Assembly: GCA_027021085.1 (NCBI GenBank)
Contig: JALUVB010000239.1
Location: 1 to 28,787, forward strand
Direction of reading: 5' to 3'
Source of the DNA: a bacterium
Lineage (GTDB): Bacteria > CAIJMQ01 > JAADFP01
Length of the DNA stretch: 28,787 bases
The position numbers were made by a program, and so were the translations under genes. The notes beneath the pieces are model-generated. The model had not been told where the DNA came from and ran no database searches. It saw only the letters and a program-made list of their open reading frames with translations. The stretch's first letter is position 1. The number at the start of each line of letters is the position of its first letter. Below are positions 5,464 to 27,421 of this stretch, one piece after another.

Positions 5464-6576
5464 TTACCTGTGAAAAACTTGAGAGAATCTTTTGCAGTAG
5501 GCTAAAAGCAGGGAATTTGTCTTGTATCTTTTTTTCATCCAGGCCGGGGAAGGCAAGATGTTTTTCTTGAGATAGAGTAATTTTTCTCCGTATCTACCGG
5601 GATAGAGCAGGTGGAGAAAACGGGTCCAGGCAGCAGAATAATTGTGGTGTCTTTGACTCCATTCTATGTAAGGCTTTCCCCGCCAGAGATATTTCTCTAT
5701 TTGTTCTATTATAGGGTGGGGCTTTATGGAAAGCAGGAAACTTGCGGGAACACTTTCAGGTGCTATCTGGTTTACCATGGATAAGACGGTGTAGAGGAAA
5801 GGATGTATTTTTGTCTTCAGGGAAAATTCCTGCAGGTAGTGCCAATCAATCTCCTTATTCCATTTTTGCAGAAATCCTATGATATCCAGGACCCACAAAA
5901 ATATGGAGAATCCGCTCCTGTGCAAGTGGATACATAAGTTGCTCAGGGTATGTTCCAGGGAAGGAAGATATATTTCTGTACCTTTTTCCCGTAAGATTCT
6001 TTTCCTCTCCCAGATTTCTTCTTCTATTTTTACCGGGATAGTAAGGTGCAGGATATCCGTATGTATTTCTACCAGTCTTCCCTTGCTAAATAGGTTTGTG
6101 TGTATGGGGGCCTGTCCTGCTTCAATTTTTGTGGGGGTATAGGGGGTAGGAGAGTAGCCTAATTGGTTAAGGGTTTTGTAAGCTATTTCCCAGTCTCTTG
6201 TTCTTATCAATATATCTATGTCTTCTGAGGCTCTTATACCCAGGTCACCGTAGACTTCCAGGGTAAAAGGTAACCCTCGCAGGAAAAGAGGGGATAACCC
6301 TGCCCGGGTTAATTCTTGCGAAAGCAATTCCATTTGTTTCCACAGGTAGAGATTGGCAGAAAGGGTAAATAGATAGGTTTGCTTAAATTTTGTCTTAAAG
6401 GGTTCCGGGATTTTATCGGTGAAAACAGAGTAAATCAGCGGAGCAATTTTATTCCTTACGGATACACGAAAAATCCCTTCCCAGTTCTCCCGGGAAGGGA
6501 TAATATTCTCTATACCGGAGAAATACGAATACGCCGCTGATATTATAAAACCAAAGTCATCCCTGGAGCCTTTCAA
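5464..6576 (-). CDS. Nucleotidyltransferase-fold protein (NTP_transf_5-like) of the peptide cluster
   Basis: A 370-residue protein resembling the uncharacterised nucleotidyltransferase family (PF14907 type) that often sits beside PqqD-like and HprK-like genes in peptide-modification and exopolysaccharide loci. The diagnostic stretch is LFLRGLPFTLEVYG (97-110) followed by R115 and the metal-binding DIDIL at 119-123. The rest is helical with a cluster of aromatic and basic residues at the C-terminus; no signal peptide or clear membrane segment. The start is TTG, two bases after the TGA of the precursor gene, with no good ribosome site, so translation is probably coupled to the precursor. A role as a nucleotidyl- or phospho-transferase acting on the modified peptide or a sugar is conceivable; the substrate is unknown. 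Confidence 0.8.
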   Translation of the reverse strand: MKGSRDDFGFIISAAYSYFSGIENIIPSRENWEGIFRVSVRNKIAPLIYSVFTDKIPEPFKTKFKQTYLFTLSANLYLWKQMELLSQELTRAGLSPLFLRGLPFTLEVYGDLGIRASEDIDILIRTRDWEIAYKTLNQLGYSPTPYTPTKIEAGQAPIHTNLFSKGRLVEIHTDILHLTIPVKIEEEIWERKRILREKGTEIYLPSLEHTLSNLCIHLHRSGFSIFLWVLDIIGFLQKWNKEIDWHYLQEFSLKTKIHPFLYTVLSMVNQIAPESVPASFLLSIKPHPIIEQIEKYLWRGKPYIEWSQRHHNYSAAWTRFLHLLYPGRYGEKLLYLKKNILPSPAWMKKRYKTNSLLLAYCKRFSQVFHR

Positions 6577-6578
6577 TC

Positions 6579-6782
6579 TCAGGAGTAGGCGGCGTAGTCG
6601 GTTCCAGCAACTAAACTGGAACTCTTTTTGCAGGCATTGTTTGTTTCAGTTGCTACATTACAATTGCCTGACCAGTTAGAATCAGAAAGTCCTGAAGCCA
6701 GGGTGCTGCAATGCTGCAAGACTGCCTGCTCAGGGTTAAGCTTAACTACCTTCACTACAGGCTCTGTATATTTCCTTTTCAT
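6579..6782 (-). CDS. Putative RiPP precursor peptide, 67 residues, three Cys
   Basis: A small peptide I do not recognise by name, with the layout of a modified-peptide precursor. The N-terminal half looks like a leader: basic start, then the pattern Y5-x-x-P8-(6 residues)-L15-x-P17-EQAVL (18-22). The C-terminal half (about 23-67) is rich in Ser, Thr, Asn, Gly and Ala and has Cys25, Cys41 and Cys51, one Trp (37), two Tyr (63, 66) and a terminal Ser67. There is no Sec signal peptide and no double-Gly cleavage site. The ribosome site is strong (AAGGAGG, seven bases from ATG), and a near-consensus promoter lies directly upstream. It sits between the third radical SAM gene and the nucleotidyltransferase gene on the same strand. 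Three Cys and three SPASM enzymes fit thioether or C-C crosslinking, but the chemistry cannot be read from sequence. Confidence 0.8.
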   Translation of the reverse strand: MKRKYTEPVVKVVKLNPEQAVLQHCSTLASGLSDSNWSGNCNVATETNNACKKSSSLVAGTDYAAYS

Positions 6783-6803
6783 AAGTAGCCCTCCTTTTTA
6801 GGA

Positions 6804-6832
6804 AGTATACATAAAACTTAGTCAAATGTCAA
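6804..6832 (-). promoter_or_regulatory. Strong sigma-70-type promoter for the precursor peptide
   Basis: On the minus strand, TTGACA (6832-6827) and TATACT (6809-6804) are separated by exactly 17 bases, eleven of twelve consensus matches. Transcription would start near 6797, about 15 bases before the ATG, so the leader is little more than the ribosome site. A short TCCT-aaaa-AGGA inverted repeat overlaps the start. This separates high expression of peptide plus nucleotidyltransferase from the enzyme genes upstream. Confidence 0.85.
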
Positions 6833-6862
6833 TAGAAAAAGGGCTTCTTCTATCCGTTTCTT

Positions 6863-7921
6863 TTATGCTTCGCATTCTATTCTTTGTTTCCCCAGTAGTT
6901 TTGTTAATTTACAGTAGTAAGGAATGTTTTTCTGGTACTCTCCTGTTTCCAGAAATGCTATGGCAGGGCACCAGGAACAAATATAGAATAAAGAACAGCG
7001 GGAACAGGGGGTATCCCGGGTGAATTTTTTCTCTCTTAGAGTGTGGGAGAGGATTTTGAATTCTTGCAATAGGTTTTCCCAGCAGGGGATAGTGTATTCT
7101 CTTAAAAAGGGACAAGCCATTACTTTGCCTTCAGGAGAAATGGAGAAGCTCCAGGTGCCTATGCCGCATTTAAAAAGTTTCCTTTTTTCACCTGCAGGAA
7201 TGCGCGGGGAGGACGGAGAATATTCATCATTTTGGAAAAACTCTTTCTTTATGGCTTCCGGAGTTAAGCGATACTTTAATGGGGCGGTTGATCCGTCTAA
7301 CCTGGGATAAACCTGGAAATTGAAGTTAAAGGGAACTTTTAGTTCCCGGGAGAAATTCCCTACGGCTTCCAGTTCCTTAAGATTTAGAGTGAGCACTTTG
7401 AACTTTATTTTAAAGGGAAGGGAAAATTCTTTGAGAAGGAATATCCCCTGCATGGTTTTTTTGAAAGAGCCTTTAACCCGGGTGATTTTTTCAAATGTAT
7501 CTTCCTTGAGACTATTAAGGGTAACTTCTATGTTAAAAGGGCGATATAGCTTGAGGAATTCAGCTGTTGCCTTGTTAATATTCCCTGCATTGGTAAGGAT
7601 GTTGACAAATAGGCCCTTCTTTTTTGCATGGAGGTAGATTTCTAAAAAATCTTCCCGGATAAAAGGGTCCCCCCCGGTAAAAGAAATCCACTGCACACCG
7701 GAAGCAACTATTTTATCAATTATCTTTTTCCATTTCTCTGTGTTTAATTCTTTCCCTTTCTCTTTCCCTTCTAAAAGTAGGGGAGGGATATAACAATAAT
7801 TGCAGCGGTGTGAACATCTGAAGGTAAGTTCTATCTGGCATTGGGCTACTTTTCCCTTTTGCCAGATTTTATCGTGCAGGGAAATGCTCTCTTCTTTATA
7901 GGGAATTTCTTTTACCCGCAT
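6863..7921 (-). CDS. Radical SAM/SPASM peptide-modifying enzyme, copy 3
   Basis: A 352-residue radical SAM enzyme. The SAM-cleaving [4Fe-4S] site is Cys36-x3-Cys40-x2-Cys43 (CSHRCNYC), with the GGE-type motif as FTGGDP at 81-86. The C-terminal SPASM domain for auxiliary clusters has Cys252, GKVMAC ending at Cys270, then Cys306, Cys309, Cys315, Cys318 and Cys337: the seven-Cys pattern, but with CX2C where CX3C is usual. Shares LxxGSFKK and the 'DGSTAPLKYRLTPE' (209-222) type stretch with the two paralogues upstream. It overlaps the preceding gene by 26 bases, with AGGAGG three bases before the ATG. It lies just before the precursor gene, so the peptide is its likely substrate. Possible reactions include Cys thioether formation, C-C crosslinking or epimerisation; which one is not decidable here. 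Confidence 0.92.
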   Translation of the reverse strand: MRVKEIPYKEESISLHDKIWQKGKVAQCQIELTFRCSHRCNYCYIPPLLLEGKEKGKELNTEKWKKIIDKIVASGVQWISFTGGDPFIREDFLEIYLHAKKKGLFVNILTNAGNINKATAEFLKLYRPFNIEVTLNSLKEDTFEKITRVKGSFKKTMQGIFLLKEFSLPFKIKFKVLTLNLKELEAVGNFSRELKVPFNFNFQVYPRLDGSTAPLKYRLTPEAIKKEFFQNDEYSPSSPRIPAGEKRKLFKCGIGTWSFSISPEGKVMACPFLREYTIPCWENLLQEFKILSHTLREKKFTRDTPCSRCSLFYICSWCPAIAFLETGEYQKNIPYYCKLTKLLGKQRIECEA

Positions 7922-8936
7922 GTGCCTCCTTATAAAAATAGTCAGCCAGTTCTTTTAACCAGGGGACGCAACTCTCAAAATTTCCATTATAGAGCCATGC
8001 ATCAGCCGGACACTTGTTGCAGTAGGGGAAAAGTTTGCAGGCAGAGCAGGGATAGTGGGAGGAAGGATGGAATCCCTTTACCCAGGAAGATAATCTCTTA
8101 AATGCTTCGTATACTCCTTCTTTGCCTATGGGAAAGGAAGGGTAGGGGAGGTTTGGACATGGTTTTACTTCCCCGGAAGGAGTTAGAGTAAAGGATTTTT
8201 TCCCTGCCATGCAGTAAAAGGGGGTATTTCCCATAGGAGTATAACCCTCGTCCCTGCAGACGAGAGGTGCAGTATCAATTGATTTCATGAATTGGAGGAT
8301 TTCCTTGGGGCTGAGTCTTAAGGATTTGTTATCAGCGTTGTTCCATTTGGGAAAAAGAGAATAGGTATAGATAAATTTACAGCCTAGATCCAGAGAGAAT
8401 TTTTTGATTTCTTCAAATTCTTTCTCATTTCCTTTTAACAGGATGTATTTTATGGTTGTTGGCACGCTTTTGTGTCTTAAAATTTTTACTGCATTTTTTA
8501 CTCTTCCAAACGAACCGGGAACGCCGGTAAAATAGTCATGCGTTTTTTCTTTCCCTCCTAAAAAAGACATTTCCACCCTGTTTACAGTCTCCCTTAAAAT
8601 ATCGGCTTCTTTTTCTTGGATAAGTGTGCCATTGCTCAGGAAAGTAAGAATTCCCCCCTTTCCCCGGGTAAAACGGATAATATCTTCCCAGGCAGGATAA
8701 AGCATTGGCTCCCCTCCTGTGAAGGTGAAGAATAGGACGCCTTTTTCCAGAAGTTCTGCTATGTAATACTGGAGAATATTGGGGGAGGTTAAGCCAGGAG
8801 GCTCATTTGAAGGAATGTAGCAATGGCGGCATTTGAGATTACAGGAATAGGTTAGCTCTATGGAGCATTTTAAGAATTTATCCCGGGAAGCGTATTTTTC
8901 CCAGAACCCGGCAAAGTTTACGTTTTCTACCCGCAT
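7896..8936 (-). CDS. Radical SAM/SPASM peptide-modifying enzyme, copy 2
   Basis: A 346-residue member of the same family as its neighbours. The radical SAM site is Cys32-x3-Cys36-x2-Cys39 (CNLKCRHC) followed by FTGGEP at 72-77. The SPASM Cys are 242, 260 (GEVKPC), 297, 300, 306, 309 and 323. It is the most diverged of the three: FLGGKEKTHDYFTG replaces the longer NSLKEDTFEKIT-type stretch of the others, and the hinge reads FPKWNNADNKSLRLSPKE. The ATG overlaps the end of the kinase gene by ten bases and has AAGGA immediately upstream, so coupling is likely. The divergence suggests a distinct reaction or site on the peptide. Confidence 0.92.
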   Translation of the reverse strand: MRVENVNFAGFWEKYASRDKFLKCSIELTYSCNLKCRHCYIPSNEPPGLTSPNILQYYIAELLEKGVLFFTFTGGEPMLYPAWEDIIRFTRGKGGILTFLSNGTLIQEKEADILRETVNRVEMSFLGGKEKTHDYFTGVPGSFGRVKNAVKILRHKSVPTTIKYILLKGNEKEFEEIKKFSLDLGCKFIYTYSLFPKWNNADNKSLRLSPKEILQFMKSIDTAPLVCRDEGYTPMGNTPFYCMAGKKSFTLTPSGEVKPCPNLPYPSFPIGKEGVYEAFKRLSSWVKGFHPSSHYPCSACKLFPYCNKCPADAWLYNGNFESCVPWLKELADYFYKEAHAGKRNSL

Positions 8937-9811
8937 TCCTTAAAATTTTTTAAAAGAAAATCCACCACATCTCTATTCTTGGCAAATCCAAGGCTGAAAA
9001 ACATGGCTTTTTGATTTATTTGCTCCAAAAGGGAGAGCACGTTTTCCAGCTTTTCTTTTTCCCAGAAAGGAAGAAAGACCTGCGGTATTAAACGAGAAAG
9101 GGTGTTTGAGGGAGATAAAGGAGTGATGACGTGGTGAGAATCATGATGCAAGAAAAAGATTCTTTTTAACCTTCCCTTTTCGGGTGATTGCACTTCTGCT
9201 GTGCCTCCCCAGGGGGTGCCAAATACCTGGAATGTGCCTTTGTTACCTTCCCTGATAATAATGGTTTCATCGTTCAGAGGTGTACCTATACCACTTTCCT
9301 CCCAGAATCTCATTATGGTGCTTTTGCCTGCTTCGGGCGGCCCGGTAAAAATCCATACTTCATTATTTAGCTTTAACGCAGCACCGTGGAATAAAACTCC
9401 TTTGCGAGCTGATAGGTGGTTAATGATGAGTAATTCTCCAAAGGGAGAGAAAAAGCGTGGGATAAACCACCCTTTCTGGTTTGTGAGGAGGTTTGTATCC
9501 GGAGGGGAGTAATAGGTGCCTGTTTGAAAATTTTTGTCTATCAATAGAACGCGGTTTTTTTTCCGTGTGATTGAGTCATAGCCATGAATGATGTATGTGT
9601 TTTCTTTCTTGTATATCTCCCAGTTTCCCGGGTTGTTTCCTATGAATTTGGCTGTATATGTTTTGTCATGAAAAGAGGAAGAGAATTCAATACTAATATG
9701 AGGAGATGAATCAGGCGTGCTGAATTTTCGGAAGATGGAGTTTAAGGGGAAAATGGGGTATTCAGGGGAGGAAAAGGCAAAGTTTATTCCGCCGATAGAT
9801 AATTTTTTCAC
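8927..9811 (-). CDS. HprK-related kinase of the peptide cluster
   Basis: A 294-residue protein resembling the kinase domain of HPr kinase/phosphorylase. The core begins with FHGAAL at 141-146, then the P-loop GPPEAGKST at 157-165, a NDE acidic motif at 180-182 and a GTPW turn at 199-202. The N-terminal 130 residues are not recognisable as the HprK N-domain. No HPr protein is encoded nearby, so the target is probably not the sugar phosphotransferase system. HprK-like kinases with PqqD-like partners are known in RiPP loci, including one type that phosphorylates a C-terminal Ser of a lasso precursor; the precursor here ends in Ser. Start is GTG with a GGGAG site, overlapping the previous gene by four bases (GTGA). 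Confidence 0.82.
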   Translation of the reverse strand: MKKLSIGGINFAFSSPEYPIFPLNSIFRKFSTPDSSPHISIEFSSSFHDKTYTAKFIGNNPGNWEIYKKENTYIIHGYDSITRKKNRVLLIDKNFQTGTYYSPPDTNLLTNQKGWFIPRFFSPFGELLIINHLSARKGVLFHGAALKLNNEVWIFTGPPEAGKSTIMRFWEESGIGTPLNDETIIIREGNKGTFQVFGTPWGGTAEVQSPEKGRLKRIFFLHHDSHHVITPLSPSNTLSRLIPQVFLPFWEKEKLENVLSLLEQINQKAMFFSLGFAKNRDVVDFLLKNFKECG

Positions 9812-10884
9812 TTTTTTGCTCCCTTTATATATTCTCTTTTTCTTCGGTTTCTTTCTTTAGCCAGTGCACAGAAAAAAGGTTCGGGATAATAAGCCTCTTT
9901 ATTCATTACTGCCCTGCCCGGACATTGGGGGCATAGGCTTCTGATACTGCAGGAGAAGCAGGGGGAATCGGCGGGAAGTTTAAGCTGAAAGAGGTTTGAG
10001 GCACGGGAAATAAATTTCTCCCGGGCACTAAGAGAGAAGATGTCTGTGGTAATCCCGCGAAAATTTGTGCATAATTCCATGTTTCCTTCCGGAGTTATCA
10101 AGAACTCCGAGTATCGATTATGGCAGGGGAAAAGAAAGGCGGTGGGAGGAGAGGATGGCGAACTTATTATTCTTGCCATGTGGGTGCAAAAATCTTTGTC
10201 TGAAAGCTCTAATTCCACTACTTCTTCCGGTGCTAACCTTAATTCCAAAGGGCGGGTATCGCCTTTAATAGTAGGGAGAATGAGGGGGTCAAACTTGTAT
10301 TTGAATTGCCTGCGCAGGATAAAATCTTTAGTCTCTAAAATATCCTCCTTGTTTAATTTGGCTCCCACGGTTTTGAGAAGCACCGGCAATTTTTTGCTTT
10401 GTAATTTCTCCAGGACTTTTTCTAACTTTTTAAATGAGCCTTTGTGCTGGGTAATTTTATCAAAGGTTTCTTCCTTGCAGCTGTGCAGGGTAATTTCTAT
10501 GAGAAGGGGAGGATAAAGAGATAATGTTTCTATCCCTTCCTCGTCGATAAGTATTCCGTTGGTAAAGATAGCTATCAAAAACCCCATTTCTTTTGCTTTC
10601 CGGTAAATCTTCCAGAAGTCTTTTCTTAGCAGGGGCTCTCCGCCCGTGAATCCTATAATGAATGTTCCCCATTCTTTAAGTTTGGTTAGTATTTGCTCTA
10701 TCAGGGGATAATCCAGGTCTTTTGCCTCGCTTTTTCTGAGAGAAGGTGGAATATAGCAATGTTTACAGTCCAGGTTGCATTTATAGGTAAGCTCCCACAT
10801 GCAGGAAAAAAATCTCCTCCGGGAAGCAGCCTTTGTATACAGCAGGTTAGCAAGCGTGTTATAGGAGTAATTCAGGAGAGACAT
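9808..10884 (-). CDS. Radical SAM/SPASM peptide-modifying enzyme, copy 1
   Basis: A 358-residue paralogue of the two enzymes downstream. The radical SAM site is Cys36-x3-Cys40-x2-Cys43 (CNLDCKHC), then FTGGEP at 79-84. SPASM Cys are 254, 272 (GNMELC), 309, 312, 318, 321 and 339. The middle has KTVGAKLNKED and DPLILPTIKGDTRPLELRLA, a stretch typical of peptide-maturation SPASM proteins that work with PqqD-like partners. An additional SHS-like tail of basic residues (344-358) ends the protein. It begins one base into the stop of the PqqD-like gene (TAATG), so the two are tightly coupled and the PqqD-like protein may serve this enzyme first. Confidence 0.92.
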   Translation of the reverse strand: MSLLNYSYNTLANLLYTKAASRRRFFSCMWELTYKCNLDCKHCYIPPSLRKSEAKDLDYPLIEQILTKLKEWGTFIIGFTGGEPLLRKDFWKIYRKAKEMGFLIAIFTNGILIDEEGIETLSLYPPLLIEITLHSCKEETFDKITQHKGSFKKLEKVLEKLQSKKLPVLLKTVGAKLNKEDILETKDFILRRQFKYKFDPLILPTIKGDTRPLELRLAPEEVVELELSDKDFCTHMARIISSPSSPPTAFLFPCHNRYSEFLITPEGNMELCTNFRGITTDIFSLSAREKFISRASNLFQLKLPADSPCFSCSIRSLCPQCPGRAVMNKEAYYPEPFFCALAKERNRRKREYIKGAKK

Positions 10885-11177
10885 TAATCCCTCACTTCTT
10901 CAAGAGCACCGAAACTAAGCAAGGTGTTAATAAAGTCCTCTATATCTTTTCTGGCTCTCTCCCGGGTAACCTCGTAGGTGTTTGTCATTCTATCGAGAAT
11001 ATTATCCAGGGAGTTTTTACCATCCAGAAGGTTCCAGATAAAGGCAGAGGTTTCGTTCAACACGTAAATAGAATCCATCTCCGGAGCTTCACTTACTACG
11101 GGAACCAGGATAACTTCCCCTTCGATTTCACGGGTGACGATATCTTTGCTTTTGTTGTAAACTTTGCCGGCTTCCAC
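10884..11177 (-). CDS. PqqD-like RiPP recognition element protein
   Basis: A 97-residue protein of the PqqD family. PqqD-type proteins form a small winged-helix RiPP recognition element that binds the precursor leader and hands it to a radical SAM/SPASM partner. Visible signatures are GEVILVPV near 20-27, the conserved core SIYVLNETSAFIWNLLDG at 36-53, and an amphipathic helical end (RERARKDIEDFINTL, 72-86). The start is GTG with a strong AGGAGGAGA site. It is the first gene of the minus-strand peptide cluster and overlaps the next gene by one base. No other leader-binding domain is apparent in the cluster. Confidence 0.9.
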   Translation of the reverse strand: MEAGKVYNKSKDIVTREIEGEVILVPVVSEAPEMDSIYVLNETSAFIWNLLDGKNSLDNILDRMTNTYEVTRERARKDIEDFINTLLSFGALEEVRD

Positions 11178-11225: not shown

Positions 11226-13145
11226 ATGTACAGGAAACTTTTGCCCATTATAACATTTTCTCTTGTAGCAGGAGTAATATGGGATTATGGAGGCATGGGA
11301 GTCTGGGGTTGGAGGATAGCATTTATTGTAAGTGCACTTCTTTTTGTTATTGCATTAATAAATAAGGAAAGAAGACGTTTCTTATATCAGGTTCCTTACC
11401 CCTTTTACCTTTTATTTATTGTCGGGTTGTTTAGTTTCGTTACCTCTCCCATTATCTCAGTATCGCTATTTCCCCTGTACAAGTTTAGTTCTTACTTTAT
11501 TCTTTTTCTTCTTTTTGCAGAGTTCCTTAAAGAGGGAAAAAACTACCAGATATTCGGGTTTTATCTCATTACTCTGGGCTTCATCTTCAGCATTTACGGA
11601 TTTTTACAGCACGGCGGTTTTGTAGAGCATTCTTACTGGGCTAATCCGACCCTTACTGCTTCGCGATTCGTAAATCATAACCACTTTTCTGCTTTTCTGG
11701 AGATTCTCATACCCGTTAACCTGTCTCTTTTTCTGGTGAAGAAGAATATACTCTTGAGGTTATTAATTTTTTCTGCATTACTGGTAAATCTCCTTTCCCT
11801 GCTGATGGCAGGTTCACGTGCGGGAATGCTTTCCCTGGGTATAGGATTCCTTTTGTTTTTCCTCCTGATTCTGAGGTATAAGCTGCTAAGTGTTAAAGAG
11901 TTTGTTTATCTTTCCTTCTTTGTGCTTATTTTATTTGTGTTATTGATTGTCTGGGAAGGTGGCGCAATAAAAGAAAGGGTCGCTGGCCTGGAGACTTCCA
12001 ACTTCTTCAGTGTGCAGCAAAGAATATTGATATGGAAAGATACCCTGAAAGCAGTGGCAAAGCGTCCCCTGGGTTATGGATGGGGAACTTTTCCCTACAT
12101 GTTTTCCCGGTTTAGAACCTTTTCAGATCGCTTTACCCCTTTCTATGTGCATAATGAGTACCTGCAGATTGCCTGGGAAATGGGATGGTTTGGTTTGGGC
12201 TTGAGTTTATGGTTGTTGTGGAAGCTATTGGTTAGAATAAAAGTAAAAATTACGTATTCAGGTGATGAATCGTTAAAAATACTTTATTTGGGGTTTTTTG
12301 TGGGGATAATAGTGCTTTTACTGCATTCCGTGGTAGATTTTCCCCTTCGTTTGCCCGCCATAGCTTTAATTTTTTCTCTTTGTCTCTCTATGGGAATGTG
12401 GAAGGGGCGGGGTGGGAATAGGTTTAATAAAGTGACCTTGGTACTTTTAGCAGTTGTGGTACTTTCAGGCATTCCCTTGACTATTGCAAGTGGAGTGGCG
12501 GAGAGTTTTTTCCAGGCAGGTAAAGAGAAAGAAAAGTTTTATCCCGGTGAAGCTAAAACATTGTATGAAAGAGCCTATAAATATTATCCCTACGAGGCTA
12601 AATATGCACGGGAGATAGGGAAAATTGACTTAAATTTAGCCAGGTTGCTGCCACTTAAAAGAAATGGGTATTTAAGGGAAGCCAGAAAATGGTTAGAGAT
12701 AGCAGTGAGGCGAAATAAGTATGATGCTTATTCCTATGTTTATCTGGCTTATGCTTATGCAGGGTTGGGAGAAGATAAAAAAGCTGGACAGGCATTTAAA
12801 AAAGCAGTTTCCTTAAGACCGCAAGAGGGTAACTTCCATTTTATTTATGCTTCCTGGTTGATTGATAAAGATACAAAGCAAGCTTTGTCTGAATTCAAGA
12901 AGGCTCTTGCGCTTTTTCACGATGGTTTTAGCGTAAAGCATGTACTGGAAAAATGCTATCCAAGAGTAAAAGTATATGATAAACTTAGAGAGCTTGTTCC
13001 CCCTGATTCGGAGAGCATATGGGAATTTGCGGTATTTCTCTGGAAAAACGGAGAAAGGGAAATGCTTGGAAAATTGGAAAAAGAATTGAGGAGTGGGGGG
13101 AGAATAAAACTTTTGAAAAGGATTGAGAAGTTGAAAGGCAACTGA
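11226..13145 (+). CDS. O-antigen ligase/polymerase-family membrane protein with C-terminal TPR domain
   Basis: A 639-residue protein of the Wzy/WaaL superfamily. Residues 1 to about 420 hold roughly a dozen hydrophobic segments with the family landmarks FVNHNHFSAFLE near 150, AGSRAG near 198, RPLGYGWGTF near 284, VHNEYLQIAWEMG near 309 and HSVVDFPLRLP near 365. From about 435 the chain is soluble and helical with TPR-like units (for example AYSYVYLAYAYAGLGEDKKA near 503-522). In this family the membrane part transfers or polymerises lipid-linked glycans at the periplasmic face; the TPR tail, probably periplasmic, may hold a partner. The ATG has no Shine-Dalgarno and lies eight bases after a TATAAT, so the mRNA may be leaderless. 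First gene of the polysaccharide operon. Confidence 0.88.
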   Translation: MYRKLLPIITFSLVAGVIWDYGGMGVWGWRIAFIVSALLFVIALINKERRRFLYQVPYPFYLLFIVGLFSFVTSPIISVSLFPLYKFSSYFILFLLFAEFLKEGKNYQIFGFYLITLGFIFSIYGFLQHGGFVEHSYWANPTLTASRFVNHNHFSAFLEILIPVNLSLFLVKKNILLRLLIFSALLVNLLSLLMAGSRAGMLSLGIGFLLFFLLILRYKLLSVKEFVYLSFFVLILFVLLIVWEGGAIKERVAGLETSNFFSVQQRILIWKDTLKAVAKRPLGYGWGTFPYMFSRFRTFSDRFTPFYVHNEYLQIAWEMGWFGLGLSLWLLWKLLVRIKVKITYSGDESLKILYLGFFVGIIVLLLHSVVDFPLRLPAIALIFSLCLSMGMWKGRGGNRFNKVTLVLLAVVVLSGIPLTIASGVAESFFQAGKEKEKFYPGEAKTLYERAYKYYPYEAKYAREIGKIDLNLARLLPLKRNGYLREARKWLEIAVRRNKYDAYSYVYLAYAYAGLGEDKKAGQAFKKAVSLRPQEGNFHFIYASWLIDKDTKQALSEFKKALALFHDGFSVKHVLEKCYPRVKVYDKLRELVPPDSESIWEFAVFLWKNGEREMLGKLEKELRSGGRIKLLKRIEKLKGN

Positions 13146-13146
13146 T

Positions 13147-14490
13147 GTGCTTTACCCATTAAGAAACATAAACAGAGGTTCTCCGGGGATATTTTTTATT
13201 TTTGCCGGAATAATTCTTGCCGCTATTTTTATTCTGGCAGTTTTCCTTATTTCTCCTGTACTCTCCTTAGCTATCACCGTAGCTGCAATCTTTTTTATCG
13301 CCACTTTTCTTAAGCTGGAAGTGGGTTTTGCTATCCTGATTTTTTCCATGCTGCTTTCCCCGGAGTTTAATCTCGTGGGAGCATTGCCGGGGGCGTTTAG
13401 GGGAGTAACGCTGAGAGTCGATGATTTACTCCTGGGGGTTATATTTTTTGCCTTTCTTGCCCGCATGGCCTTAATGAGAAGCAAGATTTCTTTCAAGTAT
13501 TCGCCTCTCTATCTACCCCTGTCAGTTTACATGTTTATCAAGATAATTGCTACCTTGTGGGGGATAAACAAGGGGAGCGTTTATCCCATGACCGGGATGT
13601 TTTTCGTTCTTAAAGAGATTGAATTTCTCCTTATCTTCTTTGTGGTTTATAACTATGTGAGAGAGCAAAAACAGGTGAAGAATTTTCTCATTATATTTCT
13701 CATAATGACGGTCATTGTAGGGATATATGGGTTTACACAAATTGGCCGGGTGAATAGAGTGGCGGCACCTTTCGATACAGGAGAGGCCAATACCTTCGGC
13801 GGCTTCCTGGTACTTATGTATGCATGCATCCTGGGTATTCTCTTTTATAGTGAATCCATAAAAGTTAAGATGGGTATGATTACTTTAGCAGTATTGCTCT
13901 TTTTCCCGTTCTTGTTTACTCTCTCCCGCAGTTCTTACCTCGGGCTTGTCCTTACCCTGCTTGTTTTCTTCTTGCTCACCCGCAATCGTGGATTGCTCTT
14001 TATTTTATTCTTTATGTTGGTTCTTTCGCCCTGGTGGCTGCCACAAGAAGTAATTTCCCGCATAACTTATACTTTCAGCGGCTACAGGGGGTATACCCTG
14101 GGTCCTTCTGCCATATCGCGACTTGGGATGTGGCGTTACACCTTGAGAATGTGGCTGGAATCCCCCCTCCTGGGACACGGGGTAACCGGGGTCAGGTTGG
14201 TGGATAACTATTACGTCAGGCTTCTGGGAGAGACAGGGATACTGGGTTTAGGTGCTTTCTTCTGGGTGATTTCGGTTATAGGCAGGTGTGCATGGAAATT
14301 GTACAGGGAAAGCAAGGACAGGTTTACACATTACTTTGCTGTGGCTTACATTGCTGGGTTTGTGGGCATCCTGGCGCATGCTATAACCACGAACACTTTT
14401 TACATCGTAAGAATAATGGAACCGTTCTGGTTTATTACGGCATTAATGATGGTACTGTGGGAAAAGGAAGTGGGGCTTACTAAGAGATAA
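13147..14490 (+). CDS. Second O-antigen ligase/polymerase-family membrane protein
   Basis: A 447-residue, multi-pass membrane protein. Wzy/WaaL landmarks are LSRSSYLGL near 258, SRLGMWRYTLRMWLESPLLGHGVTG near 327-351 (the periplasmic loop with conserved Arg and the GxG turn) and a DNYYVRLLGETGILGLG segment right after. It follows the first ligase-like gene by a single base (TGATGTG) and starts at GTG, because the ATG two bases earlier is out of frame; an AAAGG site is nearby. Having two such proteins in tandem suggests one polymerase (Wzy) and one ligase (WaaL), but sequence alone does not say which is which. Confidence 0.87.
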   Translation: MLYPLRNINRGSPGIFFIFAGIILAAIFILAVFLISPVLSLAITVAAIFFIATFLKLEVGFAILIFSMLLSPEFNLVGALPGAFRGVTLRVDDLLLGVIFFAFLARMALMRSKISFKYSPLYLPLSVYMFIKIIATLWGINKGSVYPMTGMFFVLKEIEFLLIFFVVYNYVREQKQVKNFLIIFLIMTVIVGIYGFTQIGRVNRVAAPFDTGEANTFGGFLVLMYACILGILFYSESIKVKMGMITLAVLLFFPFLFTLSRSSYLGLVLTLLVFFLLTRNRGLLFILFFMLVLSPWWLPQEVISRITYTFSGYRGYTLGPSAISRLGMWRYTLRMWLESPLLGHGVTGVRLVDNYYVRLLGETGILGLGAFFWVISVIGRCAWKLYRESKDRFTHYFAVAYIAGFVGILAHAITTNTFYIVRIMEPFWFITALMMVLWEKEVGLTKR

Positions 14491-14532
14491 TAGCCTGTCC
14501 GGAGGCTTATCTATATAGATATATAAAATAGG

Positions 14533-15951
14533 ATGACCCTTGTTTACAGAATCGCAAAGAATACCGCGTTCATAATACTTGGAAGCTTCATTGCCAAGGC
14601 AATAAATCTTGCCGTCTCATTTCTCTTGGCTCGCTACCTGAAGCCTTCTGGCTTTGGCACGTACTCCTACATATTTGCCTATCTCGGCTTTTTCGGAATT
14701 ATCTCTGATATGGGTATCAGGGAAATCCTGGTCAGAGAGATTGCCCGCCGTCCGGAAAGGACCGATGAATTAATTGGCGTGGGGATGATACTAAGAGTTT
14801 TTCTCTCTCTAGTAGCCATTATTCTTGCTTCCAGTATTGTTGTTGTTATCAATAACTCTCTCGAGGTTAAACAACTTATCTGGCTTGCTTCGCTGGGGAT
14901 GCTTTTTTCGTTTTCTGCTCTCTATAAGGTGGTTTTCCAGGTTAAGTTGAAATGGGAGTTTGTAACTCTTTGTGATACTCTGGATGGGCTTATTAAGCTT
15001 TCCGTTTTTCTGTTTCTCATAGTTAAAAAGGCTCCCCTTTCATATTTCATAGTGGCAATTGTTTTAATGTCCATGGCTTCCTGGGGAATAATTGCCTTCT
15101 TTTCCCGGAATTTTGTCAAACCTAAATGGAAAATATCTTTTCCCCTGTGGAAGGAATTGCTCAAAAATTCCTGGCCCCTGGCAATAACCACGTTTTTCAT
15201 AATTATCTACAATCGCATAGACCAGGTTATGCTCTTCCAGATGAAAGGGGATAAAGAAGTAGGTCTTTACTCCGCAGCAGTTAGGTTGGTGGAAGGCTTG
15301 AATATTATTCCGTTTGCTTTTATTGGCTCGGTTTATCCGGTAATGTCCCGGTTTTTTAAGAGTGAGCAGGATTCGTTCGAGAAAACGGTTTTCCTGAGTT
15401 TTCGTTATCTGATGACAGTAATGGTTCCTCTTGCTACACTTCTCTTTATTATTACAACACCATTGATTCATCTTATATACGGCAAGGATTATGCGGGGTC
15501 TGGCGGCGCTTTCCTGGTGCTGGTTTGGTCTGCTGTCTGGGTATGCTTTGTTGCTATTACTCATTATATTTTGAATGCTACAAATAAGCAGAATCTGAAC
15601 TTTTATCTTACCGGGACAACAGCAGGGATGAATGTCTTGTTAAATTTTCTGCTTATTCCTTCTTTTGGTATTGTGGGAGCGAGCATAGCTACCCTCATTT
15701 CCTATGGAACGGGACCTCTGGTGGGTGGTTTTTTGCCTGCTACCCGTTATTATTTCAGGAAGGGGTTTCGCTCTATTACCAGGCCTTTTATTGCCTCATT
15801 ACTCTCCGGGTTTATATCCTGGAAATTGTTTGGAGAAAACTTTTATGCAGTAATTCCTTTCGTTGTTATATACTGCGTTTTAATCTGGATAATAGGGGGC
15901 ATAAACAGGGAGGATTTGATAATATGGAAGAAAGTTTTTAATAGGGAATAA
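14533..15951 (+). CDS. Wzx-type polysaccharide flippase (MOP superfamily)
   Basis: A 472-residue integral membrane protein with about 12-14 hydrophobic segments and MOP/RfbX hallmarks: LARYLKPSGFGTYSYIFAY near 33-51, a DMGIREILVREIAR stretch near 59-72, WPLAITTFFIIIYNRIDQVML near 214-234, and GLYSAAVRLVEGLNIIPFAF near 242-261. It moves undecaprenyl-linked oligosaccharide units across the inner membrane. It begins 42 bases after the previous gene; that gap holds a weak hairpin (14492-14507) and a TATCTATATAGATA palindrome (14508-14521) followed by TATAAA. The ATG has no spaced Shine-Dalgarno. The stop overlaps the next start by one base (TAATG). Confidence 0.92.
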   Translation: MTLVYRIAKNTAFIILGSFIAKAINLAVSFLLARYLKPSGFGTYSYIFAYLGFFGIISDMGIREILVREIARRPERTDELIGVGMILRVFLSLVAIILASSIVVVINNSLEVKQLIWLASLGMLFSFSALYKVVFQVKLKWEFVTLCDTLDGLIKLSVFLFLIVKKAPLSYFIVAIVLMSMASWGIIAFFSRNFVKPKWKISFPLWKELLKNSWPLAITTFFIIIYNRIDQVMLFQMKGDKEVGLYSAAVRLVEGLNIIPFAFIGSVYPVMSRFFKSEQDSFEKTVFLSFRYLMTVMVPLATLLFIITTPLIHLIYGKDYAGSGGAFLVLVWSAVWVCFVAITHYILNATNKQNLNFYLTGTTAGMNVLLNFLLIPSFGIVGASIATLISYGTGPLVGGFLPATRYYFRKGFRSITRPFIASLLSGFISWKLFGENFYAVIPFVVIYCVLIWIIGGINREDLIIWKKVFNRE

Positions 15952-16697
15952 TGGATATACAGGAATATTACAGAAAAAATCCGTTGATGGTAAGCTCTCC
16001 CTTTGGCGGCAGGGATTTCTTTGACGAGCTTTTCTTTGAAAGGGTTTTAAATATGCTTGATATCAATATAGCTAAAAAGTTGGTTCTCGATGCAGGATGT
16101 GGCAGAGGGCTGGTGGCAAATTATTGTTTCAAAAGGGATGCTTATTATATCGGTTGTGATTTTGTAAAGAGTTTCCAGGGAGACCCACATATACCATTTC
16201 TACTGGCAGACGGTCAGAGACTACCCTTTAAAAATGAGATTTTTGATGTTATTTTTTGTATAGATGCCTTTGAGCATTTCCCCAGCCAGAAGAAAGCTGC
16301 TAAGGAGTTTAAGAGGGTATTGAAAAAAAATGGCACGGTTTTTCTTTCTGTTCCCAACTACAGCAATATATGCGGGTTGGTGAAGTTGTTTGAGGAAAAA
16401 TGTGGTTTCTATGAGAAGGGAGCCTGGGCTCCTTTTGGCAACTGGAAGCCCCAGGTGCTTGAGCAATTTATAACCCCCTGGAGAATTAAAAAAGTATTCA
16501 AAAACGCCGGGTTTAGGAATTTCAAGTTTGTAGGGCTTGACCGCGAGCTGATAACCGGAATATTCCCCTGGATAGAGCATCCCCGTATACCCGAAGCAAT
16601 AAAATTTCGGCTTCAAAGGTGGTTTCCCGGGGCCAAGCAGTTTTTCTCCAGGATTTTTCCTCATTTAAGCGGACATACTTTTTGGAAGATAGGGTGA
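15951..16697 (+). CDS. SAM-dependent methyltransferase (class I)
   Basis: A 248-residue class I methyltransferase. Motif I is VLDAGCGRG at 45-53, the acidic end of strand 2 is GCDF near 68-71, then ADGQRLPF near 85-92 and the motif IV region IFCIDAFEHF near 101-110. The C-terminal 100 residues are aromatic and basic and resemble the tails of methyltransferases found in O-antigen clusters. It probably methylates a sugar of the glycan or a lipid-linked intermediate; the acceptor cannot be read. It overlaps the flippase stop by one base, so it is in the same transcript. Confidence 0.85.
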   Translation: MDIQEYYRKNPLMVSSPFGGRDFFDELFFERVLNMLDINIAKKLVLDAGCGRGLVANYCFKRDAYYIGCDFVKSFQGDPHIPFLLADGQRLPFKNEIFDVIFCIDAFEHFPSQKKAAKEFKRVLKKNGTVFLSVPNYSNICGLVKLFEEKCGFYEKGAWAPFGNWKPQVLEQFITPWRIKKVFKNAGFRNFKFVGLDRELITGIFPWIEHPRIPEAIKFRLQRWFPGAKQFFSRIFPHLSGHTFWKIG

Positions 16698-16702
16698 AAG
16701 AG

Positions 16703-18547
16703 ATGGGGGAAAAAACAAAGGTTTTAATTGGTATTCTTACCTGGAATAAAAAAGATAAAGTTCTTGCCTGTCTGGATGCTGCAAAAAAATTAGATTTTAA
16801 AGATTATCAAGTATTGGTAGTGGATAATGGTTCTTCGGATGGAACTGCTTCTTTTATTAAAAAATTTTTCCCTGATATTACTTTGATAACCTTGCAGAAA
16901 AATCTGGGAGCGGCAGGGGGCAGAAACGTTATTATTGGGTATTTTCTGGAGAGGGGTGATTGGGATTACCTCTTCTTTCTGGACGATGATGCGGTGGTAG
17001 AGAGCAATACTCTTGAGGAAATGGTCAGAATAGCGGAAAAGAAAAAAGCAGGGGTTGTAGGTGCTAAAGTTCTTTATCATAGCCGACCGGGGTTAATCTG
17101 GTGTGCGGGCGGAGCCTATATAGACTGGAAGAGAGGGAGATTTCATGGCTCCAGGCAGGGAGAGATTGATAAGGGAGAAGATTTTCCTTATGAAGTTGAT
17201 ACTGTCCCCATAGGATTCAGTCTGGTGAGCAGAGAGGCTGTAAGAAAAGCAGGGGAAATTGATGAAAGATTTTTTATTTATTATGAGGAATCTGATTGGC
17301 AGGTGAGGATAAAAAGGGCGGGGGTTAAGATATCTTATGCTCCCGCAGCAAAGATATGGCATAAAGTCTCTTCCTCCCTGGGGCTGGAGTCTCCTTCCTT
17401 TTACTATTACAGAACCAGGAACAAACTGCTTTTCATGCGGAAAAATGCGAAAAAGATAGACTTCTTTTTCTTTATCCCCTATTTCTTATGGGATTTTACC
17501 TATAGTACACTGCTTACCCTCCTGGTGAACAGGATGAGGGAGCAGCTTAAGGCAGCTCTGTTGGGTTTTGTGGATTTTTTGAGAGGGGAGTTTGGGGAGA
17601 GAAAGTTGAAAGAAGATTTCCTGGATGCAAATATATTTCTTTTCCTGGTAAAGAAGTTGGAAAACTTAATAGTAAGAAGAGTTCTTGGTTGCAAAAGAAA
17701 GTTAAAATGTTTGGGCAAGAGACTCCTTGGAAAGCCGTTGAAGATTCTTGTCAACTCTTCCTGGAGACTGGGAGATGAGATTGCCTCTCTGCCTGTTTAC
17801 GAGAAAATAAGAGGGAAATATCCCTGTTCTGAAATTGAGGTGTTATGTAACTATCCGGAGATTCTTCGAGGGTACGATTTTTTACAGCCGCTGAAAAAAG
17901 CGGATATGAACAAGTATGATTTAATTTTCACTCTAAGAGGCGAAAATCCCTTGTTATCCAGAAGAGAAAACCTGGAAAGAAAGTTAAAGGTAAAAATCAA
18001 CCGCTATCCTGAGATTAAGCTGGAAAGAACACCTGAGGAAGATATAATAGGGATATCGGTGGGAGCAGGGTGGGAATGCCGGAAATGGCCGCGGGAATAT
18101 TTCGAAGAATTTGCCAGGCTCATGGAAAATGAGGGGTTTGAGGTGCGGTTTTTTGGCCTTCCGGATGAAAAAATAAAGGCAGGAAAAGATTTTACCGGTA
18201 TTTCGTTGAGTAAATGCATGGAAAACTTAAAAGAATGCAGGATATTTGTAGGGAATGACTCGGGGCTCTTGCATCTTTCCCTTGCCCTGGGGATTCCTTC
18301 TATTGGATTATTTGGCCCCACGGATCCGGAAAAGCTTTATATGGGTAATCCCTTGCTCTATCCTGTGAAAAGCCCGCTGTCTTGCCAGGGATGCTGGAAT
18401 AGGGGGAAGATGTTGCATCCGGATGTATGCCCGGCAGGAATTCCGGAATGTATGAGGGAAATCAAGGTAGCTTATTTAATTGATTTTCTTGAGAATATAT
18501 TGGCGGAAGAGCCTGGGAAAGTGATGCATATAAACAAGGCAGGGTAA
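16703..18547 (+). CDS. Fused glycosyltransferase: GT2 domain plus GT9 (heptosyltransferase-like) domain
   Basis: A 614-residue two-domain protein. The N-terminal GT-A/GT2 domain (about 5-290) has ILTWNKKDKVLACLDA, VVDNGSSDGT near 43-52, the metal-binding LDDDAVVE and the acceptor-side YYEESDWQVRIKRAG. An aromatic hydrophobic stretch (FFFFIPYFLWDF and following) then suggests membrane association. The GT9 domain (about 346-600) has ILVNSSWRLGDEIASLPV, SVGAGWECRKWP, GNDSGLLHLSLALGIPSIGLFGPTDP near 516-541, and a four-Cys tail (CQGCWN...C...C) common in heptosyltransferase relatives. I chose the ATG at 16703, six bases after the previous stop, over an upstream GTG at 16619 that would bury 79 bases in the methyltransferase gene; conserved GT2 sequence begins right after it. 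A single chain would add two sugars in sequence. Confidence 0.88.
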   Translation: MGEKTKVLIGILTWNKKDKVLACLDAAKKLDFKDYQVLVVDNGSSDGTASFIKKFFPDITLITLQKNLGAAGGRNVIIGYFLERGDWDYLFFLDDDAVVESNTLEEMVRIAEKKKAGVVGAKVLYHSRPGLIWCAGGAYIDWKRGRFHGSRQGEIDKGEDFPYEVDTVPIGFSLVSREAVRKAGEIDERFFIYYEESDWQVRIKRAGVKISYAPAAKIWHKVSSSLGLESPSFYYYRTRNKLLFMRKNAKKIDFFFFIPYFLWDFTYSTLLTLLVNRMREQLKAALLGFVDFLRGEFGERKLKEDFLDANIFLFLVKKLENLIVRRVLGCKRKLKCLGKRLLGKPLKILVNSSWRLGDEIASLPVYEKIRGKYPCSEIEVLCNYPEILRGYDFLQPLKKADMNKYDLIFTLRGENPLLSRRENLERKLKVKINRYPEIKLERTPEEDIIGISVGAGWECRKWPREYFEEFARLMENEGFEVRFFGLPDEKIKAGKDFTGISLSKCMENLKECRIFVGNDSGLLHLSLALGIPSIGLFGPTDPEKLYMGNPLLYPVKSPLSCQGCWNRGKMLHPDVCPAGIPECMREIKVAYLIDFLENILAEEPGKVMHINKAG

Positions 18548-18552
18548 TAAAT

Positions 18553-19260
18553 ATGGAGAAATTAAAGAATTTTGTGAAAAATGTCCCGTTTTTATATTTT
18601 CTGGTGAAATCCCTGAGAAAGATAAAAAGAGCACATAGGTACTGTGTATGGCATAAACCTATTGATGACATCAAAGAGATTGTGCTGGGAAAGGAAGAGG
18701 GAAGACGAATTCTTCATATAGGCTGCGGCAAAAAAAATATCCACCCAGGATGTATCAATATGGATGTTTTCCCCACTCCTGTCGTCCATGTAATAGGAGA
18801 TGCTCATTACTTGCCGGTGAAGAAAGAAACTTTTGATTCTGTCTGGATGGAAGCGGTGCTGGAGCATGTAAAAAATCCGGCCAGGGTGATTGGTGAAGCT
18901 TACAGGGTACTCAAACCGGAAGGGTATATTTACATTGAGATTCCCTTTTTCCAGGGGTACCATCCTTCTCCGGGAGATTACCAGAGGTTTACCCATGAAG
19001 GGCTTCGCGAGCTCTGCAAGGATTTTGAAGAGATTAAAAGCGGGGCAGTCAGTGGCCCTGCCTCTGCCTTCAGCCATGTTTTGCGGAATTTTCTTGCTTA
19101 CCTGTTCTCTTTTCATTCGGAAAATGTTTTTAACTTTTTGTACTACTATGTTTTTGGCTGGATTACCGGGCCCTGGAAATACCTGGATGTTATTCTTATC
19201 AAGCATCCCTTATCTTCTTATTTGTGTTTTGGTTTGTATTTCCTGGGAAAAAAGAAGTAA
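18553..19260 (+). CDS. SAM-dependent methyltransferase (type 11 like)
   Basis: A 235-residue protein with motif I ILHIGCGKKN at 53-62, NMDVFP near 69-74, IGDAHYLPVKKETFDSVWMEAVLEHV spanning the motif II-IV region, and AYRVLKPEGYIYIEIPFF, typical of Methyltransf_11. The N-terminal 35 residues are basic and aromatic and the C-terminal 60 hydrophobic, which may put it at the membrane. It starts six bases after the fused glycosyltransferase with an AGGG site. Likely a glycan or capping methyltransferase; the acceptor is unknown and is distinct from that of the earlier methyltransferase, since the two share little outside the fold. Confidence 0.83.
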   Translation: MEKLKNFVKNVPFLYFLVKSLRKIKRAHRYCVWHKPIDDIKEIVLGKEEGRRILHIGCGKKNIHPGCINMDVFPTPVVHVIGDAHYLPVKKETFDSVWMEAVLEHVKNPARVIGEAYRVLKPEGYIYIEIPFFQGYHPSPGDYQRFTHEGLRELCKDFEEIKSGAVSGPASAFSHVLRNFLAYLFSFHSENVFNFLYYYVFGWITGPWKYLDVILIKHPLSSYLCFGLYFLGKKK

Positions 19261-19262
19261 AA

Positions 19263-20345
19263 ATGAAAGTCCTCTTTCTCACCCTTTATTCGCGCAATTT
19301 CCCCTCCACTTACTTCAGGGTTTACCAATACCTTCCTTATCTTGAGAGAGCGGGAATAAAGTATAGGATTTGTCCTGCTATCCCTGAGGAATGGGAAATT
19401 ACTTACTATAAAGGGAAGAAATGGGGAAAAATGATTTTTGAGGCAAGGGGAGTGGGAAAAAGAGTTAAAGAAAGCATAAGCGGTTTGCAGTACGATGTTA
19501 TATTCCTTCAGAAGGGAATAACCCCGGCAAATTTCAGGGGGCTGGAAAGACTGCTTTTTCTCTTCAATGCAAATGTCATCTACGATTTTGATGATGCCGT
19601 ATATATTGCTCCCCCCCAGGAATTCAGAAACAAACTATTTTCCTGCCTCCAGGATAAAAAACAGGTAGAGAAGATAATCAGAAGGGTAAGACTCGTAATA
19701 GCGGGGAATACGCATCTTGCTCGTTATGCAGAGGAATTTAATAAAAAAGTCAGAATTATTCCCACCCCGATTGATACGGATAGGTACAGGGTCAGGGAAT
19801 ACCGGCCGGGTAAAAGGGTGATTATCGGCTGGTCGGGCTCACAAAGCACGAATAAGTATCTGAATACTATTGCTCCCATAATCTCAAAGTTGGCGATAAA
19901 GACTCCCCATGTTTTGAGAATTATGAGCAATTCCATGAAAGGAATAGATGGGAAGCTATTTTCTCCGGCAGAAATTGAGTTCGTTCCCTGGAGCAGGGAA
20001 AAAGAGGCAGAGGTAATAAGAAGTTTTGATATAGGGGTGATGCCCCTGGAAGATGACGAATGGTCAAGAGGTAAATGCGGACTTAAGGCACTTCAATACA
20101 TGGCATCCGGAGTACCGGTGGTTGCTTCTCCCGTAGGGGTAAACCGGGAGATTATAGAGGATGGTGTGAACGGTTTCCTGGCAAATACTGAGGATGAGTG
20201 GGAAGATAAACTGGATTTACTTCTGGAAGAAGGTAAAAAGAGGAAAGAAATTGGACTCAAGGGAAGAGAAACTGTGGAAAAGAGTTATTCCCTGAAGGTG
20301 AATGCCCCTTCTTTGATTAAGACATTACGGGAAGTTGCGAGATGA
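19263..20345 (+). CDS. GT4-type glycosyltransferase (GT-B fold)
   Basis: A 360-residue glycosyltransferase. The N-terminal half opens MKVLFLTLYSR with a FRVYQYLPYLERAG acceptor-side helix and YDFDDAVYIAPP near 100-111. The C-terminal nucleotide-sugar half has KRVIIGWSGSQSTNKYL, then FDIGVMPLEDDEWSRGKCGLKALQYMASGVPVVASPVGVNREI, the E/K-rich motif of family 4 with the usual first Glu replaced by Lys (KCGLKALQYMA). I place the start at 19263, two bases after the previous stop, and not at an ATG 39 bases upstream that would lie inside the methyltransferase and add a non-conserved stretch. The end overlaps the next gene by four bases (ATGA). Confidence 0.88.
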   Translation: MKVLFLTLYSRNFPSTYFRVYQYLPYLERAGIKYRICPAIPEEWEITYYKGKKWGKMIFEARGVGKRVKESISGLQYDVIFLQKGITPANFRGLERLLFLFNANVIYDFDDAVYIAPPQEFRNKLFSCLQDKKQVEKIIRRVRLVIAGNTHLARYAEEFNKKVRIIPTPIDTDRYRVREYRPGKRVIIGWSGSQSTNKYLNTIAPIISKLAIKTPHVLRIMSNSMKGIDGKLFSPAEIEFVPWSREKEAEVIRSFDIGVMPLEDDEWSRGKCGLKALQYMASGVPVVASPVGVNREIIEDGVNGFLANTEDEWEDKLDLLLEEGKKRKEIGLKGRETVEKSYSLKVNAPSLIKTLREVAR

Positions 20346-22946: not shown

Positions 22947-22947
22947 G

Positions 22948-27416: not shown

Positions 27417-27421
27417 CAAAA

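Follow-up and report, generated by a model that had tools for sequence, protein, structure and literature searches.

A seven-gene cluster with three radical SAM/SPASM enzymes and an HprK-like kinase represents a widespread candidate RiPP family with a conserved C-terminal serine or threonine

The window analysed here is the whole 28,787-nucleotide stretch of the bacterial contig JALUVB010000239.1 (GenBank assembly GCA_027021085.1), and the system in question is a compact cluster of seven genes that appears to make a ribosomally synthesised and post-translationally modified peptide (RiPP). A reading of the DNA from its sequence alone had placed seven mostly overlapping genes on one strand, and all seven open reading frames (ORFs) were recovered on the minus strand in that arrangement, as follows (the letters in brackets are used below):

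10884-11177, minus strand: discrete PqqD-like RiPP recognition element (RRE) protein, 97 amino acids (D)
9808-10884, minus strand: radical SAM/SPASM enzyme, 358 amino acids (E1)
8927-9811, minus strand: HprK-like kinase of the HprK/PEPCK fold, 294 amino acids (C)
7896-8936, minus strand: radical SAM/SPASM enzyme, 346 amino acids (E2)
6863-7921, minus strand: radical SAM/SPASM enzyme, 352 amino acids (E3)
6579-6782, minus strand: precursor peptide, 67 amino acids (A)
5464-6576, minus strand: NTP_transf_5 (PF14907) protein, 370 amino acids (N)

The genes are transcribed in the order D-E1-C-E2-E3-A-N, with overlaps of 1, 4, 10 and 26 bases; the peptide gene begins 80 bases past E3 and ends 2 bases ahead of N. 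A second genome of the same genus (G001, locus L016) carries the identical seven genes in the same order, with protein identities of 78–89%, the highest value being that of E1. The ratio of nonsynonymous to synonymous substitution rates (dN/dS) between the two genomes is 0.07–0.16 over all seven genes, and the value of 0.14 for precursor A indicates purifying selection on the peptide itself. The conserved order and the low dN/dS of every gene show that the cluster is not a chance assembly.

The identities proposed for the PqqD-like, SPASM and nucleotidyltransferase proteins were borne out by Pfam, with matches to PqqD (PF05402, 64 bits), Radical_SAM (PF04055; 91, 83 and 81 bits for E1, E2 and E3, respectively) and NTP_transf_5 (120 bits). 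Each of the three SPASM enzymes has the complete set of ten Fe-S cysteines that had been read in them, namely the CX3CX2C motif and seven SPASM cysteines. Among solved structures, the RRE protein is nearest to a PqqD family protein (9x8z) and to the lasso peptide RREs TbiB1 and TfuB1, and it is predicted to bind the YxxP leader of the precursor. The predicted structure of the N protein is a nucleotidyltransferase fold with an intact DxD motif, and residues G101, D119, D121, H217 and D231 are invariant among 28 relatives; a sequence search found no solved relative. Pfam gave no match for the 67-residue peptide, and no protein of the cluster matched an NCBIfam model over its cut-off, including those of the GeoRSP and HPr-rel-A systems that had been named as possible matches.

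For protein C, Pfam yielded only AAA P-loop matches, all sub-threshold. Its AlphaFold model (pLDDT 94) matches PEPCK and HprK/P in a Foldseek search, with a Z score of about 13 to PEPCK, and a profile of the kinase family aligns to HPr kinase across the His, P-loop and Asp-Asp-Arg motifs. On the basis of this predicted fold and profile alignment C is assigned as a kinase, in agreement with the P-loop kinase related to HprK suggested previously. Throughout 51 relatives, the catalytic residues H142, K163 and D181 are unchanged.

Precursor A has a leader of the YxxP type, YTEPVVKVVKLNPEQAVL, in which YTEPVV (residues 5–10) matches the motif [Y/W]xxPx[L/V/I/F/A]; [Y/W]xxP has been defined as an RRE-binding motif (PMC13381572). 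The peptide contains Cys25, Cys41 and Cys51 and ends in DYAAYS. A hidden Markov model (HMM) of the leader connects it to about 190 relatives, and the combination of an RRE, maturases and a conserved small precursor with an RRE-binding leader motif upholds the earlier proposal of a RiPP-type system.

The feature that was missing from the sequence-only reading, and that likely gives the kinase its substrate, is the last residue of the precursor. Precursors were identified with a leader-only HMM cut just past the first conserved Cys, so that the C-terminus was not used in the search; their consensus is KKxYxKPxhxxVxLxxEEAVLxxCK ... C ... C ... GS. A kinase gene lies within 3.5 kb of 82 non-redundant precursors, of which 72 end in Ser and eight in Thr, while control ORFs of 40–110 residues from the same loci end in Ser in 10% and in Thr in 4–5% of cases, giving an expectation of about 15%. 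The binomial probability of this excess is about 1e-63 if independence is assumed, a value that is weakened by shared descent. For the hold-out, a peptide profile was searched in 285 genomes of the phylum Omnitrophota and matched in 40 of them; the choice of these genomes relied on a profile that included full-length seeds, while the ORFs were re-identified with the leader HMMs. Of the 109 new non-redundant precursors obtained in this way, 101 terminate in Ser and 3 in Thr; the five exceptions include three short ORFs of 38–43 residues. In precursors of the PEQA[VI]L type, to which the window peptide belongs, Ser or Thr is the last residue in 49 of 49.

The peak of Ser and Thr is confined to position −1, where the two together reach 95–98%. 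At position −2, Gly predominates in the first set versus Pro, Ser or Ala in the hold-out, and therefore the precursors do not simply share a C-terminal tail. All six Ser codons are in use at the terminal position, so that selection acts on the residue rather than on the DNA. A terminal Ser is not general for peptides encoded beside HprK-like genes either, since peptides from loci with a ScmC gene over the cut-off lack it and thus provide an internal control. The terminal Ser or Thr is therefore the likely substrate of the kinase, as it is the known target of the HprK-type kinases of lasso peptides, PadeK and PsmK, and for C the predicted site of phosphorylation is the final Ser of the precursor, Ser67 in A:

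6582-6584, minus strand: Ser67 codon of precursor A

The distribution of the system was followed by searching an HprK-like profile in 386 broadly sampled genomes and retrieving the loci, and by scanning a closer set of nine kinase sequences against one genome per species of GTDB r220, which gave 80 named loci. The latter are found in Omnitrophota, Nitrospinae, Nitrospirota, Aminicenantes, Desulfobacterales and other deltaproteobacteria, Acidobacteria, KSB1, WOR-3, Chloroflexota, Aerophobetes, Desantisbacteria, Methylomirabilis, Myxococcales, Armatimonadetes and Fermentibacteria. The cluster and its relatives thus extend far beyond this genome, and the window cluster branches deeply within a widespread RiPP family present in well over ten phyla. 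As annotated with home-made HMMs, a core order of RRE, SPASM enzyme, precursor and kinase (D-E-A-C) is constant across phyla, and a gene for an S26/SipW-like peptidase, the N gene or both usually come next. Neighbours within 6 kb were counted in 51 loci with a kinase match above 100 bits and flanks of at least 3 kb on both sides of it: D and E were each found in 48, the S26/SipW-like peptidase in 33 and an MsbA-like ABC exporter in five. The earlier observation that the cluster lacks a protease and a transporter is true of the window, but the frequency of the peptidase and the occasional exporter among its relatives mean that retention of the product in the cell is not implied. One locus considered as a kinase-free control (L225) proved to be a decayed remnant.

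Most cassettes of the family have a single SPASM enzyme. The three-SPASM form, together with a leader of the window's type ('KLNPEQAVL'), recurs in Omnitrophota (e.g., D-A-E-E-C-E in L301 and E-D-A-E-E-C-E in L292) and in one other small phylum, where locus L064 has the arrangement D-A-E-E-C-E-ABC exporter-N. E1, E2 and E3 lie on long branches of the SPASM tree with weak deep support, and no order of duplication is claimed. Thioethers are the usual product of SPASM enzymes acting on Cys-containing cores. In the first set, 59 of 82 precursors have three Cys, the commonest number, and these residues allow thioethers, such as the Cys links to the alpha (or beta/gamma) carbon of sactipeptides and ranthipeptides, rather than demonstrate them. 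In L315 (3262-5271, minus strand), one ORF of 669 residues comprises both a radical SAM/SPASM enzyme and an HprK-like kinase, and two further SPASM genes occur in the locus; this natural fusion supports joint action of the two activities.

Some Omnitrophota genomes contain large precursor arrays. At least 41 divergent precursors were found in G641 and at least 30 in G595, on contig stretches where no cassette gene was detected (loci L262-L281), and each genome has one strong kinase match, located in G595 within a C-D-E-E-E cassette with three SPASM genes. The leader and the last Ser of these precursors are conserved, while the cores are hypervariable. A single kinase thus appears to serve at least 30–40 precursors in Omnitrophota, and the retention of leader and last Ser in so many peptides of a genome with one strong kinase match fits a single promiscuous set of enzymes with many substrates and is independent evidence that the last residue is recognised. 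A third genome, G405 (L282-L287), also has precursor arrays with conserved leader and terminal Ser and hypervariable cores. Near-identical orphan precursors ending in IPQCFNPGS were observed in L214-L220 (genomes G048, G193 and G325; ten matches in G048) with no cassette genes detected around them; they are probably served in trans by the cassette of L017, which itself has no precursor nearby. The arrays resemble the trans libraries of prochlorosin type, where one lanthipeptide synthetase acts on many scattered precursors with a conserved leader and hypervariable cores. This likeness applies to the window's relatives, the window itself having a single precursor, and the enzymology is unrelated.

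A close parallel to the kinase module, likewise absent from the sequence-only reading, is with paeninodin- and pseudomycoidin-type lasso peptides and with linear polyphosphorylated peptides (LPPs; Popov et al. 2026), all of which combine an RRE, an HprK-like kinase and an NTP transferase. In paeninodin-type systems the linear precursor receives a phosphate on its C-terminal Ser from an HprK homologue that is largely indifferent to the rest of the peptide, and in pseudomycoidin PsmN, annotated as a nucleotidyltransferase, extends the phosphorylated Ser by one or two hexoses (PMC9266682, PMC8498205). The window shares with these systems (PadeK, ThcoK and PsmK; PsmN) a discrete RRE, an HprK-homologous kinase, a nucleotidyltransferase-type protein, a C-terminal Ser on the precursor and a [Y/W]xxP leader. 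It differs from them in that the operon has three SPASM enzymes instead of a lasso cyclase and a B2 protease; neither a lasso cyclase nor a B2 leader peptidase is among the annotated genes of the window.

We infer the substrate of each enzyme, the type of bond, the order of the steps, the processing and the biological role from these comparisons, and put the probability of the resulting RiPP mechanism as a whole at roughly 0.7. The PqqD-like RRE would bind the 67-residue precursor through its YxxP/PEQAVL leader and hand the peptide to the three SPASM enzymes, which would introduce radical cross-links, most likely thioethers, into the Cys-containing core. The kinase would phosphorylate the hydroxyl group of Ser67 on the linear precursor, by analogy with PadeK, ThcoK and PsmK acting on lasso precursors. 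In a further step the Ser67 phosphate may receive a sugar or a nucleotidyl group from the NTP_transf_5 protein, in the manner of PsmN; the protein is a tentative candidate for such a phosphoglycosylating enzyme. A SipW-like peptidase would finally remove the leader, in this genome in trans, the candidate genes being located on contigs C148 or C107. Our confidence in the link between the kinase and the terminal Ser is higher than that in the mechanism as a whole, and for the role of N it is lower, somewhat below even odds.

Several points weigh against this mechanism. The family is known from sequences and predicted structures, and the type of bond formed by a SPASM enzyme is not readable from its sequence. 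The fourth residue of the HKDD set of the kinase, D182, is near-invariant in relatives, and Glu is found there in the window, in L016 and in a few others. The window cluster has no adjacent SipW-like peptidase gene, and an NTP_transf_5 gene lies near the kinase in just 25 of the 51 loci. As for the analogies, the LPP kinase acts on Ser3, which is internal, and not on the C-terminus (PMC13381572), and LppN was inactive in a heterologous host.

Among the alternatives, the one that survives best is a system of LPP or lasso type centred on phosphorylation, with the SPASM enzymes as recruited accessories. In its favour are the common RRE, HprK-like kinase, NTP transferase and YxxP leader start, among the window's relatives a SipW-like peptidase for the leader and in some cases an MsbA-like exporter, and the same location beside polysaccharide loci. 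However, the conserved LPP set comprises an SpI peptidase, an RRE, an HprK-like kinase, an NTP transferase and an exporter, with no mention of radical SAM/SPASM enzymes (PMC13381572), and described lasso clusters likewise contain no SPASM enzyme, whereas SPASM genes lie near the kinase in 48 of our 51 loci. The leaders also diverge downstream of the YxxP start: that of LPPs reads YxxPxVLxHQxIxFETxxS, while the window leader, YTEPVVKVVKLNPEQAVLQHC, lacks HQxIxFET, and the Ser modified in LPPs is internal, at core position 3. On balance we regard this alternative as unlikely. Sets resembling those of LPPs (S26 peptidase, RRE, NTP_transf_5, ABC exporter and HprK-like kinase, with no SPASM enzyme) were observed beside apparent polysaccharide export genes in L079 (3858-8273) and in L080; LPPs have been described as confined to Bacillota.

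Slightly less probable still is that the cluster is a divergent SynChlorMet (SCM, TIGR04248-TIGR04251) cassette with an SCM-type product, in which the RRE would correspond to ScmD, the kinase to ScmC and the SPASM enzymes to ScmE/F. The best NCBIfam matches of the RRE and the kinase are indeed ScmD and ScmC, and SCM loci over the cut-off, such as the bona fide locus L209, also hold an RRE, two SPASM enzymes, an HprK-like protein, an S26 peptidase and NTP_transf_5. Nevertheless, the scores of the window proteins are all far under the curated cut-offs (ScmD 38 of 100 bits, ScmC 14 of 125, ScmE and ScmF at most 77 and 63 of 400), which places the cluster near SynChlorMet but outside it. Candidate SCM precursors encoded beside or near an over-cut-off ScmC gene or a SPASM gene (L209:8159-8326, minus strand; L020:13954-14271, minus strand; L213:4089-4433, plus strand) have Cys-x2-Gly repeats and no Ser at the end. 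To our knowledge, listings of SynChlorMet identify no precursor. A YxxP start was observed in the candidates from L209 and L020 and not in that from L213. Moreover, the window's genome has a separate SCM-like cluster on contig C148. This second cluster (L021, 4572-8330; counterpart L022 in the same-genus genome) encodes an HprK-like protein, a SPASM enzyme, a PqqD protein, a fusion of PqqD with an S26 peptidase and a Cys-Gly-repeat peptide, and has nucleotidyltransferase and polysaccharide-type genes nearby. Systems of the GeoRSP and HPr-rel-A types share with the window the pairing of PqqD-like and SPASM proteins or an HprK-like component, and their profiles score far below cut-off (GeoRSP SPASM 53–77 of 400 bits, GeoRSP PqqD 22 of 100, HprK_rel_A 13 of 200).

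It is very improbable that the SPASM enzymes, in the way of PqqE and the mycofactocin maturase, turn the peptide into a small redox cofactor, with the C-terminal Ser as a processing signal only: the homology of the SPASM enzymes covers PqqE and MftC-like models, and NirJ and heme-type models are top-scoring, but hypervariable cores and tens of divergent copies per genome are ill-suited to one cofactor, and the kinase gene is found with the precursors.

The sequence-only reading had regarded this combination of genes as undescribed. No named system fits it, and in the open-licence literature we found no paper naming SynChlorMet and none combining HprK, radical SAM and RiPP; to the extent that the open literature can be searched, the combination is undescribed, its kind being RRE-dependent RiPP biosynthesis. 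It is not singular, however, since the cluster is one branch of a very widespread family in which three-SPASM cassettes recur. We consider the odds slightly in favour of a new RiPP class that spans more than ten phyla, in which a SPASM cross-linked core is combined with HprK-type phosphorylation, and sometimes glycosylation, of a C-terminal Ser or Thr, and whose three-SPASM cassette in Omnitrophota processes at least 30 hypervariable precursors genome-wide in trans. Such a family would unite two tailoring logics that have been reported separately, SPASM cross-linking and the kinase–NTP transferase module of lasso peptides and LPPs, and extend them into uncultured phyla. The near-invariant last residue makes a one-residue prediction of kinase function that can be tested with one mutant, and the leader motif should permit the mining of hundreds more precursors. 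Few members of the Omnitrophota are in culture, and the arrays of this phylum hint at natural libraries of cross-linked peptides.

Directly upstream of D, and divergent from it, positions 11226-28555 are occupied by an O-antigen/capsule-type locus with two Wzy_C-type proteins, a flippase, glycosyltransferases, sugar dehydratases and DegT aminotransferases. Paeninodin and LPP clusters have likewise been reported beside polysaccharide loci, and this recurrent location makes a cell-surface role of the phosphopeptides testable. A role in defence was also considered and rejected, the only overlap in PADLOC being a generic viperin-like radical SAM match.

The precursor gene is preceded by a strong Shine-Dalgarno sequence, AAGGAGG, and two further elements were detected around it:

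6804-6832, minus strand: predicted sigma-70-type promoter of the precursor gene, TTGACA-17-TATACT, 11 of 12 matches
6473-6501, minus strand: hairpin with a 12-bp stem followed by a T run, in the 5' coding end of the NTP_transf_5 gene

The promoter is the top match in the region and lies in the gap before the precursor gene, and both hexamers are identical in L016, where the spacer has diverged. The hairpin may act as an attenuator between A and N, allowing the precursor to be made in excess over the N protein; sites with a hairpin and a T run are not more numerous in the region than expected by chance, and in L016 the stem is retained with an altered loop.

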